NCBI GenBank assembly: GCA_028820655.1
Contig: JAPPIK010000032.1
Location: 62,001 to 126,000, forward strand
Reading direction: 5' to 3'
DNA length: 64,000 bases
From: Candidatus Poribacteria bacterium
GTDB taxonomy: Bacteria > Poribacteria > WGA-4E > JAJDTR01
Shown here: positions 15,187 to 19,922 of the stretch, in pieces
How the letters are laid out: each line of letters starts with the position of its first letter
How positions within the stretch are numbered: the stretch's first letter is position 1
Made by a program: the position numbers and the translations under genes
The notes under the pieces: generated by a model
What the model was told of the DNA's origin: nothing
The model's input: the letters and a program-made list of their open reading frames with translations, nothing else
Database searches by the model: none

Positions 15187-18100
15187 ATGGATTCGCGTTT
15201 CAAACGATTGATTGTTCTGGTCGCAATTCTGGCGGCAATTGGTGGGATTGTGGCCATCCTCGTACAGATCTATCCGGACTTACTATGGTTTGGTGTAGTA
15301 GGCTATAGTTCGGTATACAAAAAGATTCTAATCACCAAGGTGCTCCTGGGGATTGGCGTTGGGGGTTTCTTTCTTGCTGTTACCTTAATTAACGTCTATC
15401 TGCTGTATCGCTTTACTCCGTCTCGGCTCAGTCCAACGGTAATGGAGAGCATTCCGATAAGAGGAGAGGCTGATTTCGATCTGCGGAGACTAATCTATGG
15501 TGTACTAACTCTCTTGGCAATCGGGTTTAGTGTGTTGATGGGTTATGCGGCAACGGACCGGTGGGAGCCTTTCCTTCGATACTCAAATGCCGAAGGACTG
15601 ACTTTTCAGAATGCCACGCCCGTCATTGACTCGTCAGGCCGCGATGCGTCTGAGTTGCACATTGCCGAACTGGAACTCAAAGCAAAAGGGTTGCAAGTCG
15701 GCGACGATGTCACGATACAAGGCACAGATGGAAACGTTACTTCATCTATCCAATCCATTCAGGTTCAAGACGATGGTATTGCAAGAATCCAATTGGAGAA
15801 TCCTGTAGGCTTTGATGTCACGACAGAAACCACATTGATGGCGGCGGCGCGCGACCCGGTCTTTCACAAGGACGTTAGCTATTATGTCTTTAGAATGCCG
15901 CTTGAACGCTTCATCATTGGAAATCTGTTTGGATTGTTCATGTTGTTGACCTTCTTTTCTGCCGGGATATACTTTTTTCACGGTCTGCTGATCGGTGATA
16001 ACAATCGCCTCTCGCCTCCTGCCCATGTTAAAGTCCATCTGTTAATACTTGGGGCGTTGACGCTGATATTTCGAGCTTGGAATTATCGTTTTGCAATGTA
16101 TGATTTACTCTACACGTCGAATGATGTTGTGCGTGGAGGTGGAGGCTATGCAGCCATACATGCTCGTCTGCCGTTGTTGAATATCCTCTTGGTGCTTTCC
16201 GCCATTTGCGCCGCTGTTTTTCTAATCAGCATTTTTCTGAAGCGGCTAAGATATGCCTTGGCGACATTCGGAATCTTTTTGGTCGTAGGTATGATAGGCC
16301 AGATATATCCGGCTGTTGTACAGAAATGGCGTGTTGAGCCGAATAAACAAGAGCTTGAAACAGAATATATCAATTACAATATCAAGGCAACGCTGCACAG
16401 TTACGATCTGGAAGAGAACACTGTTACGGAAGAGGAATATCCGTTGAAGGGCGAGCTCTCATATGAGGGAATAAGAAATCGAGAGAACGCCGCCGTGATG
16501 AATAGCGTTCGCCTATGGGACGAGCGGCCTATCCAACGCACGTTTAGACAGTTGCAAGAGTTACGGTCACAATACGATTTTCATGGTGTGGACATTGATA
16601 GGTATTCGGTCGAAGGTTCCCCGCGCCAAGTAATGTTGTCTGTAAGAGAATTGAACATCAACGAACTTCCACATGCCGTTCGAAACGACTGGTTCAAGCG
16701 CACTTACGTGTACACACATGGATATGGGGCTGTGATGAGCCCCGTTAACGAGATTCTCGATGGCAAGCCAAAAATGTACGTTCGGGATATTGATCCGGTT
16801 CACTATGAACCGGAATGGAGTTATCGATTCGGTGAAAACCCCGGCCCCCGAATCTATTATGGGGAACGCACGAATCATTATGTCATCGTGCATCCAGCAC
16901 GTAGCGAAGATTTGGAATTCGATTATCCAACATCATTTGGCGAAGATTTTGCCAAGTATTCATACCTGGGGCAAGGGGGAGTTGAACTGTCCTCGTTCTG
17001 GCGAAAGTTTGTGTATATGCTAAAGTTTGGCAACGAATTCAAGTTCGTTCTCCCCGGTGAGATTAATTCAGACAGTCGGGTGCTCTATCATCGCAACATC
17101 AAAGAACGTGTCAAAAAAATTGCACCTTTTCTTCAATACGATGGCGACCCTTATGCGATTGTTCACGACGGAAGATTGGTGTGGATGCTTGATGCCTATA
17201 CAACCACGCATCGATATCCATATGCAGCGCCTATGCAACATGCGCTGCGCGCCGAAATAGCTGAACGACGCGGCAGTCGCGTTGCTAGTCGGATTCAGGG
17301 CGGGGAGAAGCCGTGGGGGAATTACATACGCAACGCCGTGAAGGTTGTAGTTGATGCGTATGACGGTAGCGTAGAATTTTATGTCATTGAGCAGGAAAAG
17401 GATCCGATTGTCGAGTGTTATCGCAGCATTTTTCCCGACCTTTTCAAGCCGTTCGATATGATGCCGGAGGAACTCAAAAGGCACATCCGTTACCCTACGA
17501 CCATGTTTCTCATTCAGGCACGAATGTATCAGGATTATCACATGAAGGATCCTGTCACATTTTACGCGAGCGAAGATCAGTGGGAGATTGGAAAAGAACT
17601 GTACGACAATACGGAACGCCAACGTGCGCTGCAGGCGGCCCAGTTGCCATCAAGTCCGTTTGCTCCGCGTCAGCCAAACTTGCCCGAAACTGTTACAAAC
17701 GTTCAAGAGGTGGCGCCGTATTACGTAATTATCAAATTGCCGGGCGAGGAGCGGGCTGAATTCATGCTCATGTTGCCGTTTACGCCCAAGAACAAACCAA
17801 ACCTCACCGCGTGGTTTGCTGCGCGATGCGATCTTCCTCAATACGGACAGTTGTTAGTTTTTCGGTTTCCGAAGGGAAAACTCGCACCCGGCCCAATGCA
17901 AGTCGAGAACTTCATCAGCCAAGAACCAGAAATATCTCAACAGATTTCATTGTGGGACAGTCAGGGTTCGCGTGTATTGCGTGGTAATCTGCTAATTATT
18001 CCCATGAATGAATCCATCCTGTATGTAGAACCGATTTATATTCAGTCGGAGGATGCCAAAACGGCAATTCCCGAATTGCGGCGGGTGGTCATCGGGTACA

Positions 18101-18408
18101 AGGAGAATGTCGCGTGGGGAAAGAGCCTTGATGAAGCGTTGATTAATATGTTCGGAAAGAGCCTTGCCTCTGCTACAGGCGTCTCCGTCACATCTGGGAG
18201 CGAACCGGACGGCGGTTCTATTCGCGCGAATGTTCCAACGCCCGGAGAGACATCTGTTCGCGATTTGGTGAGTTTAGCGGCTCAACATTTTGATTCGGCA
18301 CAGGAAGCGCAGCGCAGCGGAAATTGGTCGGAGTATGGCAGACATCTGAACTTATTGGAACAAATTCTAAATCAACTGGAAGCCGGTACGTTGGAAGGAG
18401 GTGAATAG
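15187..18408 (+). CDS. UPF0182 family large membrane protein
   Basis: A 1073-residue protein with about seven transmembrane segments in the first 380 residues (for example IVLVAILAAIGGIVAILVQI and LFGLFMLLTFFSAGIYFF), then a long soluble domain. The soluble part has family landmarks such as FHGVDIDRYSVEGSPRQVML, NDWFKRTYVYTHGYGAVMSP and GPRIYYGERTNHYVIV. UPF0182 is widespread in actinobacteria, cyanobacteria and others, and has no established biochemical function. An Ala/Pro-rich stretch near residue 1000 precedes the usual coiled C-terminal tail. Its last codons contain the ribosome binding site of the DUF5069 gene, which starts one base after the stop, so the two are surely co-transcribed. 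Confidence 0.93.
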   Translation: MDSRFKRLIVLVAILAAIGGIVAILVQIYPDLLWFGVVGYSSVYKKILITKVLLGIGVGGFFLAVTLINVYLLYRFTPSRLSPTVMESIPIRGEADFDLRRLIYGVLTLLAIGFSVLMGYAATDRWEPFLRYSNAEGLTFQNATPVIDSSGRDASELHIAELELKAKGLQVGDDVTIQGTDGNVTSSIQSIQVQDDGIARIQLENPVGFDVTTETTLMAAARDPVFHKDVSYYVFRMPLERFIIGNLFGLFMLLTFFSAGIYFFHGLLIGDNNRLSPPAHVKVHLLILGALTLIFRAWNYRFAMYDLLYTSNDVVRGGGGYAAIHARLPLLNILLVLSAICAAVFLISIFLKRLRYALATFGIFLVVGMIGQIYPAVVQKWRVEPNKQELETEYINYNIKATLHSYDLEENTVTEEEYPLKGELSYEGIRNRENAAVMNSVRLWDERPIQRTFRQLQELRSQYDFHGVDIDRYSVEGSPRQVMLSVRELNINELPHAVRNDWFKRTYVYTHGYGAVMSPVNEILDGKPKMYVRDIDPVHYEPEWSYRFGENPGPRIYYGERTNHYVIVHPARSEDLEFDYPTSFGEDFAKYSYLGQGGVELSSFWRKFVYMLKFGNEFKFVLPGEINSDSRVLYHRNIKERVKKIAPFLQYDGDPYAIVHDGRLVWMLDAYTTTHRYPYAAPMQHALRAEIAERRGSRVASRIQGGEKPWGNYIRNAVKVVVDAYDGSVEFYVIEQEKDPIVECYRSIFPDLFKPFDMMPEELKRHIRYPTTMFLIQARMYQDYHMKDPVTFYASEDQWEIGKELYDNTERQRALQAAQLPSSPFAPRQPNLPETVTNVQEVAPYYVIIKLPGEERAEFMLMLPFTPKNKPNLTAWFAARCDLPQYGQLLVFRFPKGKLAPGPMQVENFISQEPEISQQISLWDSQGSRVLRGNLLIIPMNESILYVEPIYIQSEDAKTAIPELRRVVIGYKENVAWGKSLDEALINMFGKSLASATGVSVTSGSEPDGGSIRANVPTPGETSVRDLVSLAAQHFDSAQEAQRSGNWSEYGRHLNLLEQILNQLEAGTLEGGE

Positions 18409-18409
18409 A

Positions 18410-18691
18410 ATGGGATTGGATTGGAAACCACGTCATCGGGATACGCTAATCGGGGATTTTCCGTGGTTGGCACGAATCACTGACAAAGCGAATGCCAAGT
18501 TGGCCGGTACAATCGGTGATTACATCTACCCGTGACCGCAAGACAAGATGTTCCTGGAGGAACATAAAATTGGTGCTGATGCATTCGTTGAAATGGTGAA
18601 GAATAATCCGTCGGACGATGCCATGATTTCAGCGATGAAATCACTCAAAAAAACATCGAAGAAGGGGAAGTCGAAACGCCGTAAATCCTGA
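18410..18691 (+). CDS. DUF5069 protein with in-frame TGA: candidate selenoprotein
   Basis: A 93-codon frame with TGA at codon 42 (18533-18535). Before it, residues such as WLARITDKANAKLAGTIGDY match the DUF5069 family as I know it. After it, P-Q-D-K-M-F-L-E and GADAFVEMV continue the same family. In relatives the TGA position is Cys in the motif Y-x-Cys-P-x-D. The ribosome binding site AAGGAGGTGA (18395-18404) is the best in the window, with ideal spacing. A perfect hairpin begins 12 bases after the TGA (18548-18565), as a bacterial SECIS element would. The last 20 residues are Lys/Ser-rich. Readthrough with selenocysteine is my preferred reading; a nonsense mutation or sequencing error cannot be excluded. 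Without readthrough only 41 residues are made. DUF5069 function is unknown. Confidence 0.75.
18536..18565 (+). promoter_or_regulatory. Candidate bacterial SECIS element
   Basis: Directly after the in-frame TGA: 12 bases, then ATGTTCC (18548-18554), loop TGGA (18555-18558), then GGAACAT (18559-18565), a perfect 7-bp stem. The published bacterial SECIS consensus asks for an upper stem of 4-16 bp, a loop of 3-14 nt with a G among its first two bases, and the loop 16-37 nt after the UGA. Here the loop starts 20 nt after it and its second base is G, so all three conditions hold. Confidence 0.65.
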
Positions 18692-18700
18692 TGGGTTAAC

Positions 18701-18809
18701 CGTAATGCGTGAATAGTCGATGGTGTGTCACAATGAAGTAACTCACCTTGTTTTTTGCCACTTAACTTGACGTAATCGTGAGTTCAACTTCTAAGGATCA
18801 CGCATTACG
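18701..18809. repeat. 12-bp inverted repeat bracketing the pheA leader
   Basis: CGTAATGCGTGA (18701-18712) and its exact complement TCACGCATTACG (18798-18809), 85 bases apart. A related CGTAATCGTGA lies inside at 18771-18781. The pair encloses the terminator and a weak candidate promoter (TTGACG 18767, TCTAAG 18790). Confidence 0.5.
18722..18756 (+). terminator. Rho-independent terminator after the DUF5069 gene
   Basis: Stem GGTGTGT / ACTCACC (one mismatch) around a 12-base loop, followed by TTGTTTTTT at 18748-18756. It ends the UPF0182-DUF5069 transcript 31 bases after the last stop codon. Confidence 0.6.
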
Positions 18810-18821
18810 TCACCCTATTGT

Positions 18822-19922
18822 ATGGGAGAGTCATTGTTGGAATTAGAAAACCTACGCGATCAGTTGGATGAGATTGACAATAGGATATTGTTACTTCTGC
18901 ATAATCGCGCCGAGATTGTACGGAGCGTTGGGCAACTCAAATCAGCCAATGGCGGCGAAAATGTCTATGTGCCGCACCGAGAGACGAAAATTCTTGCGCG
19001 GTTGCGGGAGAAGAATCGTAATTTCTTCCCGGCGGACGCTCTCGATACAATTTTCGCAGAGATAATCTCCGCATGCCGGTCATTGGAGCAACGCCTTGAG
19101 GTCGCGTTTCTTGGTCCTGAAGGGAGTTTCGGTCATGCGGCGGCACTTCGGCACTTTGGATCATCGGTCAATTTCAATCCAATAGCAGATCAGACCGATG
19201 TATTTTCGGAGGTTGAATCGGGCAGAGCAGATTACGGAGTCGTTGCGATTGAAAACTCATCTAGGGGGACAGTGCGCGACGTTTTAGAAATGTTTGCAGG
19301 TACGACGCTACAAATTTGCGCAGAGGTGATTTTGCCGATTGATCAAAACCTATTGTCTAAATCGCCAAAGGAGCGAATCACTAAAGTGTATTCGCACCCA
19401 CAGCCGTTTGCGCAATGCCGGGAGTGGTTGCGCCAAAACCTAAAGGGCATTCGACAGATTGAAGTTGCGAGCACATCGGAAGCCGCACAATTGGCTGCAG
19501 CAGAGGAAGACGCCGCAGCAATAGCTAGTAAATTGGCGGCTGAAATCTATGGATTACAAATCGTCGGTGAATCAATCATGGATAGCTCGTGCAACATAAC
19601 GCGTTTTCTCGTGATTGGACCTCACACGGCAATGAGAAGCGGTCAGGATCGCACTTCAATCTTCATAGCCATTCAGGATAGAGTTGGCGCCCTCTATCAG
19701 GTGTTGACGGTACTTCAGAAGCATCAGATTAATATGAGCAAGATTGAATCGATGCCAGCTCAAACCAAACCTTGGGAGTACGTGTTCTTCGTTGATTTGG
19801 ACGGACATGTTGACGATTCTAATGTGCAGGCGGCACTACCGGAGCTTGAAAAACTGTGCCTGCATGTCAAGCTTCTAGGCTCCTATGCGCGTAGCGCGTC
19901 GCCGCAAGACTCATCAATCTGA
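18822..19922 (+). CDS. pheA: Chorismate mutase / prephenate dehydratase (P-protein)
   Basis: Bifunctional enzyme from chorismate to phenylpyruvate in phenylalanine synthesis, 366 residues. An AroQ-type chorismate mutase occupies about 1-90 (LENLRDQLDEIDNRILLLL). Prephenate dehydratase spans about 95-270, with FLGPEGSFGHAAA, AIENSSRGTV and the catalytic NITRFLVIG. An ACT domain follows (RVGALYQVLTVLQKHQINMSKIESM). The ACT domain normally carries ESRP for phenylalanine binding; here it reads ESMP, so feedback control may be altered. It sits alone between a terminator and a convergent gene. Confidence 0.95.
   Translation: MGESLLELENLRDQLDEIDNRILLLLHNRAEIVRSVGQLKSANGGENVYVPHRETKILARLREKNRNFFPADALDTIFAEIISACRSLEQRLEVAFLGPEGSFGHAAALRHFGSSVNFNPIADQTDVFSEVESGRADYGVVAIENSSRGTVRDVLEMFAGTTLQICAEVILPIDQNLLSKSPKERITKVYSHPQPFAQCREWLRQNLKGIRQIEVASTSEAAQLAAAEEDAAAIASKLAAEIYGLQIVGESIMDSSCNITRFLVIGPHTAMRSGQDRTSIFIAIQDRVGALYQVLTVLQKHQINMSKIESMPAQTKPWEYVFFVDLDGHVDDSNVQAALPELEKLCLHVKLLGSYARSASPQDSSI

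Follow-up and report, generated by a model that had tools for sequence, protein, structure and literature searches.

The window, the whole 64,000-nucleotide stretch of DNA that was analyzed, belongs to a Poribacterial assembly of 5.88 Mb that is 95% complete. Poribacteria are bacteria described as sponge symbionts and are known from marine sponges. Between a UPF0182 gene and pheA, the window carries a short gene of the DUF5069 family (PF16798) with an in-frame TGA codon (Table 1). The original prediction described a 93-codon frame preceded by a Shine-Dalgarno sequence and interrupted by a single TGA at codon 42, with no frameshift. Rereading of the DNA confirmed each of these points: the frame opens with ATG at 18410, 3' of AAGGAGGTGA (18395-18404), and ends with TGA at 18689-18691; the TGA at codon 42 is its only internal stop, and the sequences on both sides of this codon lie in one frame. 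With the internal TGA read as Cys, the product matches PF16798 over residues 7-83 with 51.1 bits against a cut-off of 27, covering only positions 4-80 of the 133 in the profile. A similar Shine-Dalgarno sequence lies ahead of the start codon in most relatives of the gene. No NCBIfam family was found at E <= 1 for the four proteins that were tried.

Table 1. Features of the DUF5069 locus in the window and related genes elsewhere in the source genome.
Feature	Location	Strand	Description
UPF0182 gene	15187..18408	+	Directly upstream; stop 1 nt ahead of the ATG
Shine-Dalgarno sequence	18395..18404	+	AAGGAGGTGA; within the 3' end of the UPF0182 gene
Short-form DUF5069 gene, predicted selenoprotein	18410..18691	+	93 codons; identified from the ORF, the PF16798 match and relatives
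UGA codon 42, predicted Sec	18533..18535	+	At the Cys of Y-x-Y-P-C-P-x-D
SECIS-like hairpin	18548..18565	+	7-bp stem AUGUUCC/GGAACAU; loop UGGA, 18555-18558
pheA	18822..19922	+	Downstream; chorismate mutase, prephenate dehydratase, ACT
selD, contig C22	L098:1462-2532		In-frame TGA near the start (..ECAGUASK..)
Triple-DUF5069 paralogue, contig C4	L002:844-2148		434 aa; three PF16798 stretches

The neighborhood of the gene was compared across 46 named loci, which comprise 43 TGA forms and 3 Cys forms and are titled as Poribacteria in 45 cases and as Bacillota in one. An upstream UPF0182 match is present in 38 loci, separated from the DUF5069 gene by 1-237 nt in 36 of them and by 591 and 953 nt in the other two. 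A pheA match is likewise present in 38 loci; in the 37 for which the gap was measured with tblastn, it is 28-308 nt in 34, the remaining three being 447 nt, 5338 nt and -107 nt, the last from a partial match. Some neighbors are missing because the flanks end at contig ends. Three loci (L090-L092) keep pheA and have no UPF0182 match. The two Cys forms from Poribacteria in this set are likewise followed by pheA. In two Poribacterial Cys loci (L095:6001-10658 and L096:3606-8795), the DUF5069 gene heads a series of aromatic amino acid genes, in the order pheA, aminotransferase, prephenate dehydrogenase and EPSP synthase. In the Bacillota locus, an ABC transporter lies downstream of the DUF5069 gene. 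Gene order hints that DUF5069 may be connected with aromatic amino acid synthesis, although it does not prove a common function. The gap between the DUF5069 gene and pheA in the window (18700-18810) holds a perfect 11-base inverted repeat, GTAATGCGTGA ... TCACGCATTAC, and a similar pair occurs at the same place before pheA in a locus of the same genus (L052); the repeat is a candidate leader structure for pheA, or else a small element.

To follow the in-frame TGA among relatives, 193 genomes were searched, including the source genome; 80 gave a match and 77 carried the short gene, and in G070, G075 and G088 only distant, longer DUF5069 forms were matched. The original prediction had called for a search of related genomes for the same TGA, and 71 of these 77 genomes proved to have it, the other 6 having Cys. 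The 71 TGA genomes are the source genome, 69 others of its order and G074, from another family of the same class; the six Cys genomes (G072, G076 and G078-G081) all belong to one family of the class (f5). Within the order, the TGA form is present in 70 of 72 genomes and was not seen in G059 and G070, each 81% complete; G059 gave one PF16798 match among the matches listed in a wider family search. The codon was read base by base in the fetched loci (76 rows, 54 distinct DNA sequences), and for genomes beyond these loci the TGA count rests on an automatic count of stops. All 54 distinct TGA genes contain exactly one internal stop, which is always TGA and always at the same codon, and they terminate in TAG (26), TAA (25) or TGA (3). 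The codon is TGA, rather than TGC or TGT, in independent assemblies as well, some of which are single-contig chromosomes. In the seven distinct short genes that lack the TGA, the site codon specifies Cys in every case (six TGC, one TGT) and is never TGG. The conservation of the in-frame TGA in the short DUF5069 gene is far beyond chance.

Codon variation was examined in 53 distinct TGA sequences, with L089 excluded for its one extra codon. Downstream of the TGA, F+17, N+24, P+25, D+27 and A+33 are kept as residues while their codons vary, so the segment behind the TGA is selected as protein. Conversely, codons +6 to +9 (TTC CTG GAG GAA) show zero synonymous change in all 53 sequences. Nearly all other degenerate codons vary, D-38 being one further fixed codon.

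The invariant codons encode the center of a SECIS-like hairpin, which adds to the original prediction and whose stem motif begins 15 nt past the TGA. All 54 distinct TGA genes contain the motif TTCC-TGGA-GGAA (TTCCTGGAGGAA), and none of the 7 distinct Cys genes does. The motif lies 15 nt past the TGA in 53 of the TGA genes and 18 nt past it in one, which places the loop 19 or 22 nt after the UGA. For bacterial SECIS elements, a 2026 review (PMC13188914) gives an apical loop of 3-9 nt with an upper stem of 4-16 bp, a G among the first two nucleotides of the loop, a minimum free energy (MFE) of at most -7.5 kcal/mol, and 16-37 nt between the UGA and the apical loop. The hairpin of the window falls within all four of these published limits, with its 4-nt loop and 7-bp stem, the G of its loop, an MFE of -8.0 kcal/mol and a UGA-to-loop distance of 19 nt. 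Across the 54 TGA genes, the 4-bp core with its closing pair, the UGGA loop and a distance within the 16-37 nt range are universal; the energies are more variable, with 28 of the isolated 26-nt hairpins reaching -7.5 kcal/mol and 26 being weaker. The hairpin forms part of the MFE fold of the surrounding 60-nt stretch in 39 genes and is absent from that fold in 15. In the window, a 58-nt stretch folds no better than its shuffles (z = -1.06), and the z score of the 31-nt core is -2.79.

Covariation was tested on 38 distinct 28-nt hairpins against 500 shuffles. The four core pairs are invariant, so the core itself is no test of pairing. In the three outer pairs, both sides have changed in 6 cells, a value as high as which was reached in 0 of 500 shuffles, and 90.2% of the cells pair, versus at most 68% when the register is slid. 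Of the 38 hairpins, 17 leave outer pair 3 unpaired and 9 leave pair 2 unpaired. The number of pair types is not above that of the shuffles, 436 of the 500 having as many or more, and a slide of +2 columns outscores the true register in covariation (0.091 versus 0.059) with only 38% of its cells paired.

The original prediction also named selA, selB, selC and selD as genes to be sought in the source genome, and all four were found. One cluster on contig C51 holds selA (590.8 bits), selB (351.1 bits) and tRNA-Sec (76.6 bits), and ARAGORN reports a tRNA-SeC with the anticodon tca in the same genome; the searches for selA and selD covered the source genome. The SelD protein of this genome is itself a predicted selenoprotein, given the in-frame TGA of its gene, and Sec in SelD is already known according to the table in PMC13188914. 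The 60-nt fold behind the selD TGA is no better than that of its shuffles (z = -0.25). Among the 71 TGA genomes, selB scored above the cut-off in 67; the other four (G009, G050, G063 and G065) are 73-83% complete. A tRNA-Sec, for which 20 candidates were scored per genome, was above the cut-off in 63 of the 71; the eight others are G009, G036, G042, G050, G063, G064, G065 and G069, four of them more than 90% complete. selB is also above the cut-off in five of the six Cys genomes, the sixth (G081) being 61% complete, and missing machinery therefore does not explain the Cys there. SelA and SelB families are reported to be present together in the majority of sponge symbiont bins, from various phyla (PMC5649159). 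UGA is, in addition, an ordinary stop in the window, since 16 of its 36 large non-overlapping ORFs (at least 220 codons, picked by length) end in TGA, the others ending in TAG (12) or TAA (8).

Across the wider DUF5069 family, the site often, but not always, carries Cys. The original prediction placed the TGA on the Cys of a Y-x-C-P-x-D motif. In a profile search that returned 605 proteins, the site residue among the best 120 is Cys in 100 and Trp in 20, which, together with the seven non-TGA short genes, bears out this placement; the Sec/Cys pairs that the prediction expected are likewise present, as 54 distinct TGA genes opposite 7 distinct Cys genes. Two or more Cys residues occur in 30 of the best 120. 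In a wider family search of 386 genomes, five genomes outside the class matched DUF5069, and none of the matches listed has an internal stop. Cys occupies the site in four of five distant DUF5069 stretches that were inspected. The source genome itself encodes a paralogue made up of three PF16798 stretches, the domain that it shares with the short gene. It differs in having a motif of the type YG-x-x-SG-x-D instead of Y-x-C-P-x-D, and thus has neither Cys nor Sec at the site; the frames on either side are, we presume from resemblance, phosphoribosyl pyrophosphate synthase and SmpB. Among the matches listed, long DUF5069 frames with several domains are found repeatedly across the order.

The proteins of the Poribacterial clade with Trp at the Sec site are public metagenome proteins (P0002-P0007, P0010, P0011, P0013-P0016, P0020, P0021, P0024 and P0057). 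In a family tree of 172 rows and 89 columns, in which bootstrap support is unsettled, most Trp rows fall among the Poribacterial TGA genes. Several Trp proteins have an almost identical counterpart gene that carries TGA; for example, P0006 equals the product of a TGA gene (L081) except at the site. P0002 continues with Trp at the position of the gene's own terminal TGA, a mark of gene calling under genetic code table 4. Because of this position in the tree and the identity of P0006, the Trp in rows among Poribacterial TGA genes is most likely a UGA called by table 4. Two Trp sets adjoin Cys rows instead: P0012, with weak support, and the group of P0070, P0079 and P0081. The latter three read YIYPWGAD at the site and group with Cys proteins in a clade separate from the Poribacterial one; judged from their translations, they may represent a second DUF5069 Sec lineage with a putative UGA. 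Starred branches of the tree require at least three changes of the Cys label. Among the matches listed for 198 genomes around G209, there was no TGA form except in the Poribacterial genome G002; a search of G216 for the DNA of the Trp proteins gave a weak match only, and the viral contigs gave one weak 32-residue match to P0070 (L122) and no match to P0001.

These observations were weighed against three readings in which Sec is not the point of the codon. A nonsense mutation, a pseudogene or a base error, with the gene dead, is easily imagined because TGA is one base away from the TGC and TGT codons of the relatives; this reading was rejected, and we consider its probability negligible, given that the TGA is kept in 71 of 77 genomes and in independent assemblies and that selection acts on the downstream protein, where F+17, N+24, P+25 and A+33 persist as their codons change. 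Decoding of UGA as an amino acid throughout the genome, for example as Trp under table 4, would leave nothing special about the codon and would agree with the Trp of the metagenome proteins of the same clade. It was also rejected, and hardly any probability attaches to it: TGA terminates 16 of the 36 large window ORFs, the seven sense-codon short genes have Cys and never TGG, and the multi-domain DUF5069 paralogues have no internal stop among the matches listed. The UGA might, finally, serve as a selenium-sensing switch that yields a 41-residue peptide at low selenium or alters pheA expression, with the full-length protein mattering less. The short distance to pheA (28-308 nt in 34 of the 37 loci measured) would suit such a switch, as would the inverted repeat that precedes pheA both in the window and in its nearest relative. 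The switch nevertheless appears very improbable, as the protein sequence of the C-terminal half is conserved and the Cys forms, which lack the UGA, also precede pheA, so that the gene pair is independent of the UGA. Sec is favored instead by the conserved TGA, the Sec/Cys exchange, the hairpin motif, the genes of the machinery and the use of TGA as a stop elsewhere in the window, and the UGA of the short DUF5069 gene is very likely decoded as Sec, to give a predicted selenoprotein of 93 residues. The central claim of the original prediction, a candidate selenoprotein, is thus strengthened by the conservation of the TGA, the hairpin motif and the presence of selA, selB, selC and selD.

With Sec as the preferred reading, the SelB and tRNA-Sec of the same genome would insert Sec at UGA codon 42, which the hairpin follows, and the selenol of Sec42 would be the single reactive group of the protein. 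The predicted fold of the short form is all-helical in two models (pLDDT 74.5 and 76.8), in both of which a helix of residues 43-51 starts at residue 43, right after residue 42. In these models, the location of residue 42 just ahead of the helix would favor an ionized selenolate. None of the 48 distinct predicted Sec proteins contains Cys in addition to Sec, so the protein would presumably act as a one-selenol redox protein (a reductase, peroxidase or sensor) that is recycled by an external thiol. A redox role of the predicted Sec42 protein is the interpretation that we favor, with moderate confidence. Sec could also be inserted for a purpose other than redox chemistry, such as metal binding or selenium carrying. 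The lack of Cys beside Sec in all 48 proteins, the invariant Tyr, Asp, Arg and Lys residues in 77 aligned sequences and the lack of an enzyme among the fold matches (a Foldseek search against the PDB returned two matches at E <= 10, 3omd and another at E 5.6, and the absence of enzymes there excludes nothing) are compatible with such a purpose. We regard it as less likely, since Cys at the site in 100 of the best 120 of 605 homologues points to a chemistry common to thiol and selenol, not to selenium storage. It is plausible that the Cys or Sec at the DUF5069 site is redox-active or catalytic. More tentatively, DUF5069 could constitute an all-helical class of selenol/thiol enzymes outside the thioredoxin fold, with no resolving Cys, in which Sec and Cys have been swapped more than once. 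One such swap would lie beyond the Poribacterial clade, in a second lineage that databases conceal because its UGA was called as Trp. In such an enzyme, the Sec or Cys at the helix start would be framed by the invariant Tyr38, Tyr40, Asp45 and Arg/Lys.

Prokaryotic selenoproteins were tabulated in 2026 as 119 families and subfamilies (PMC13188914), and DUF5069/PF16798 is not in that table as published. The absence from this table and from NCBIfam accords with the original prediction, which was aware of no description of a DUF5069 selenoprotein. In the open-licence literature, no paper was found on DUF5069/PF16798, on selenoproteins of Poribacteria or of sponge symbionts, or on 3omd of Leptospirillum, and a report in a subscription journal is possible; Poribacteria and selenocysteine are named together in two papers, in one of them through a reference only. 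A marine survey (PMC2398784) includes a protein, GOS_A, that has no domain. DUF5069 is thus predicted to be a selenoprotein family absent from the current catalogue. The short gene resembles those of bacterial SECIS-dependent selenoproteins, such as formate dehydrogenase, SelD and others in the table of PMC13188914, in its in-frame UGA at a conserved Cys, in a hairpin that starts ∼12-15 nt downstream with G second in the loop, and in the presence of SelA, SelB, tRNA-Sec and SelD in the source genome. In contrast to them, its site, YIYPUPxD, has neither CxxU nor UxxC. Most characterized selenoproteins have a thioredoxin-like fold, as stated in the same review, whereas the DUF5069 protein is predicted to be all-helical. 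The solved example of PF16798, 3omd from Leptospirillum rubarum, has 145 aa; the window protein is shorter and would carry Sec in place of Cys.

Known selenoprotein families are few, as the 119 entries of the table (PMC13188914) illustrate. A trap is also apparent here, in that the gene calling applied to metagenomes seems to have rendered these selenoproteins as Trp proteins. Although a DUF5069 structure has been solved since 2010, the family is without an assigned function, and the conserved, predicted Sec marks the one DUF5069 residue worth testing. The presence of the TGA form in 70 of 72 genomes of one Poribacterial order suggests a need for selenium in that group.
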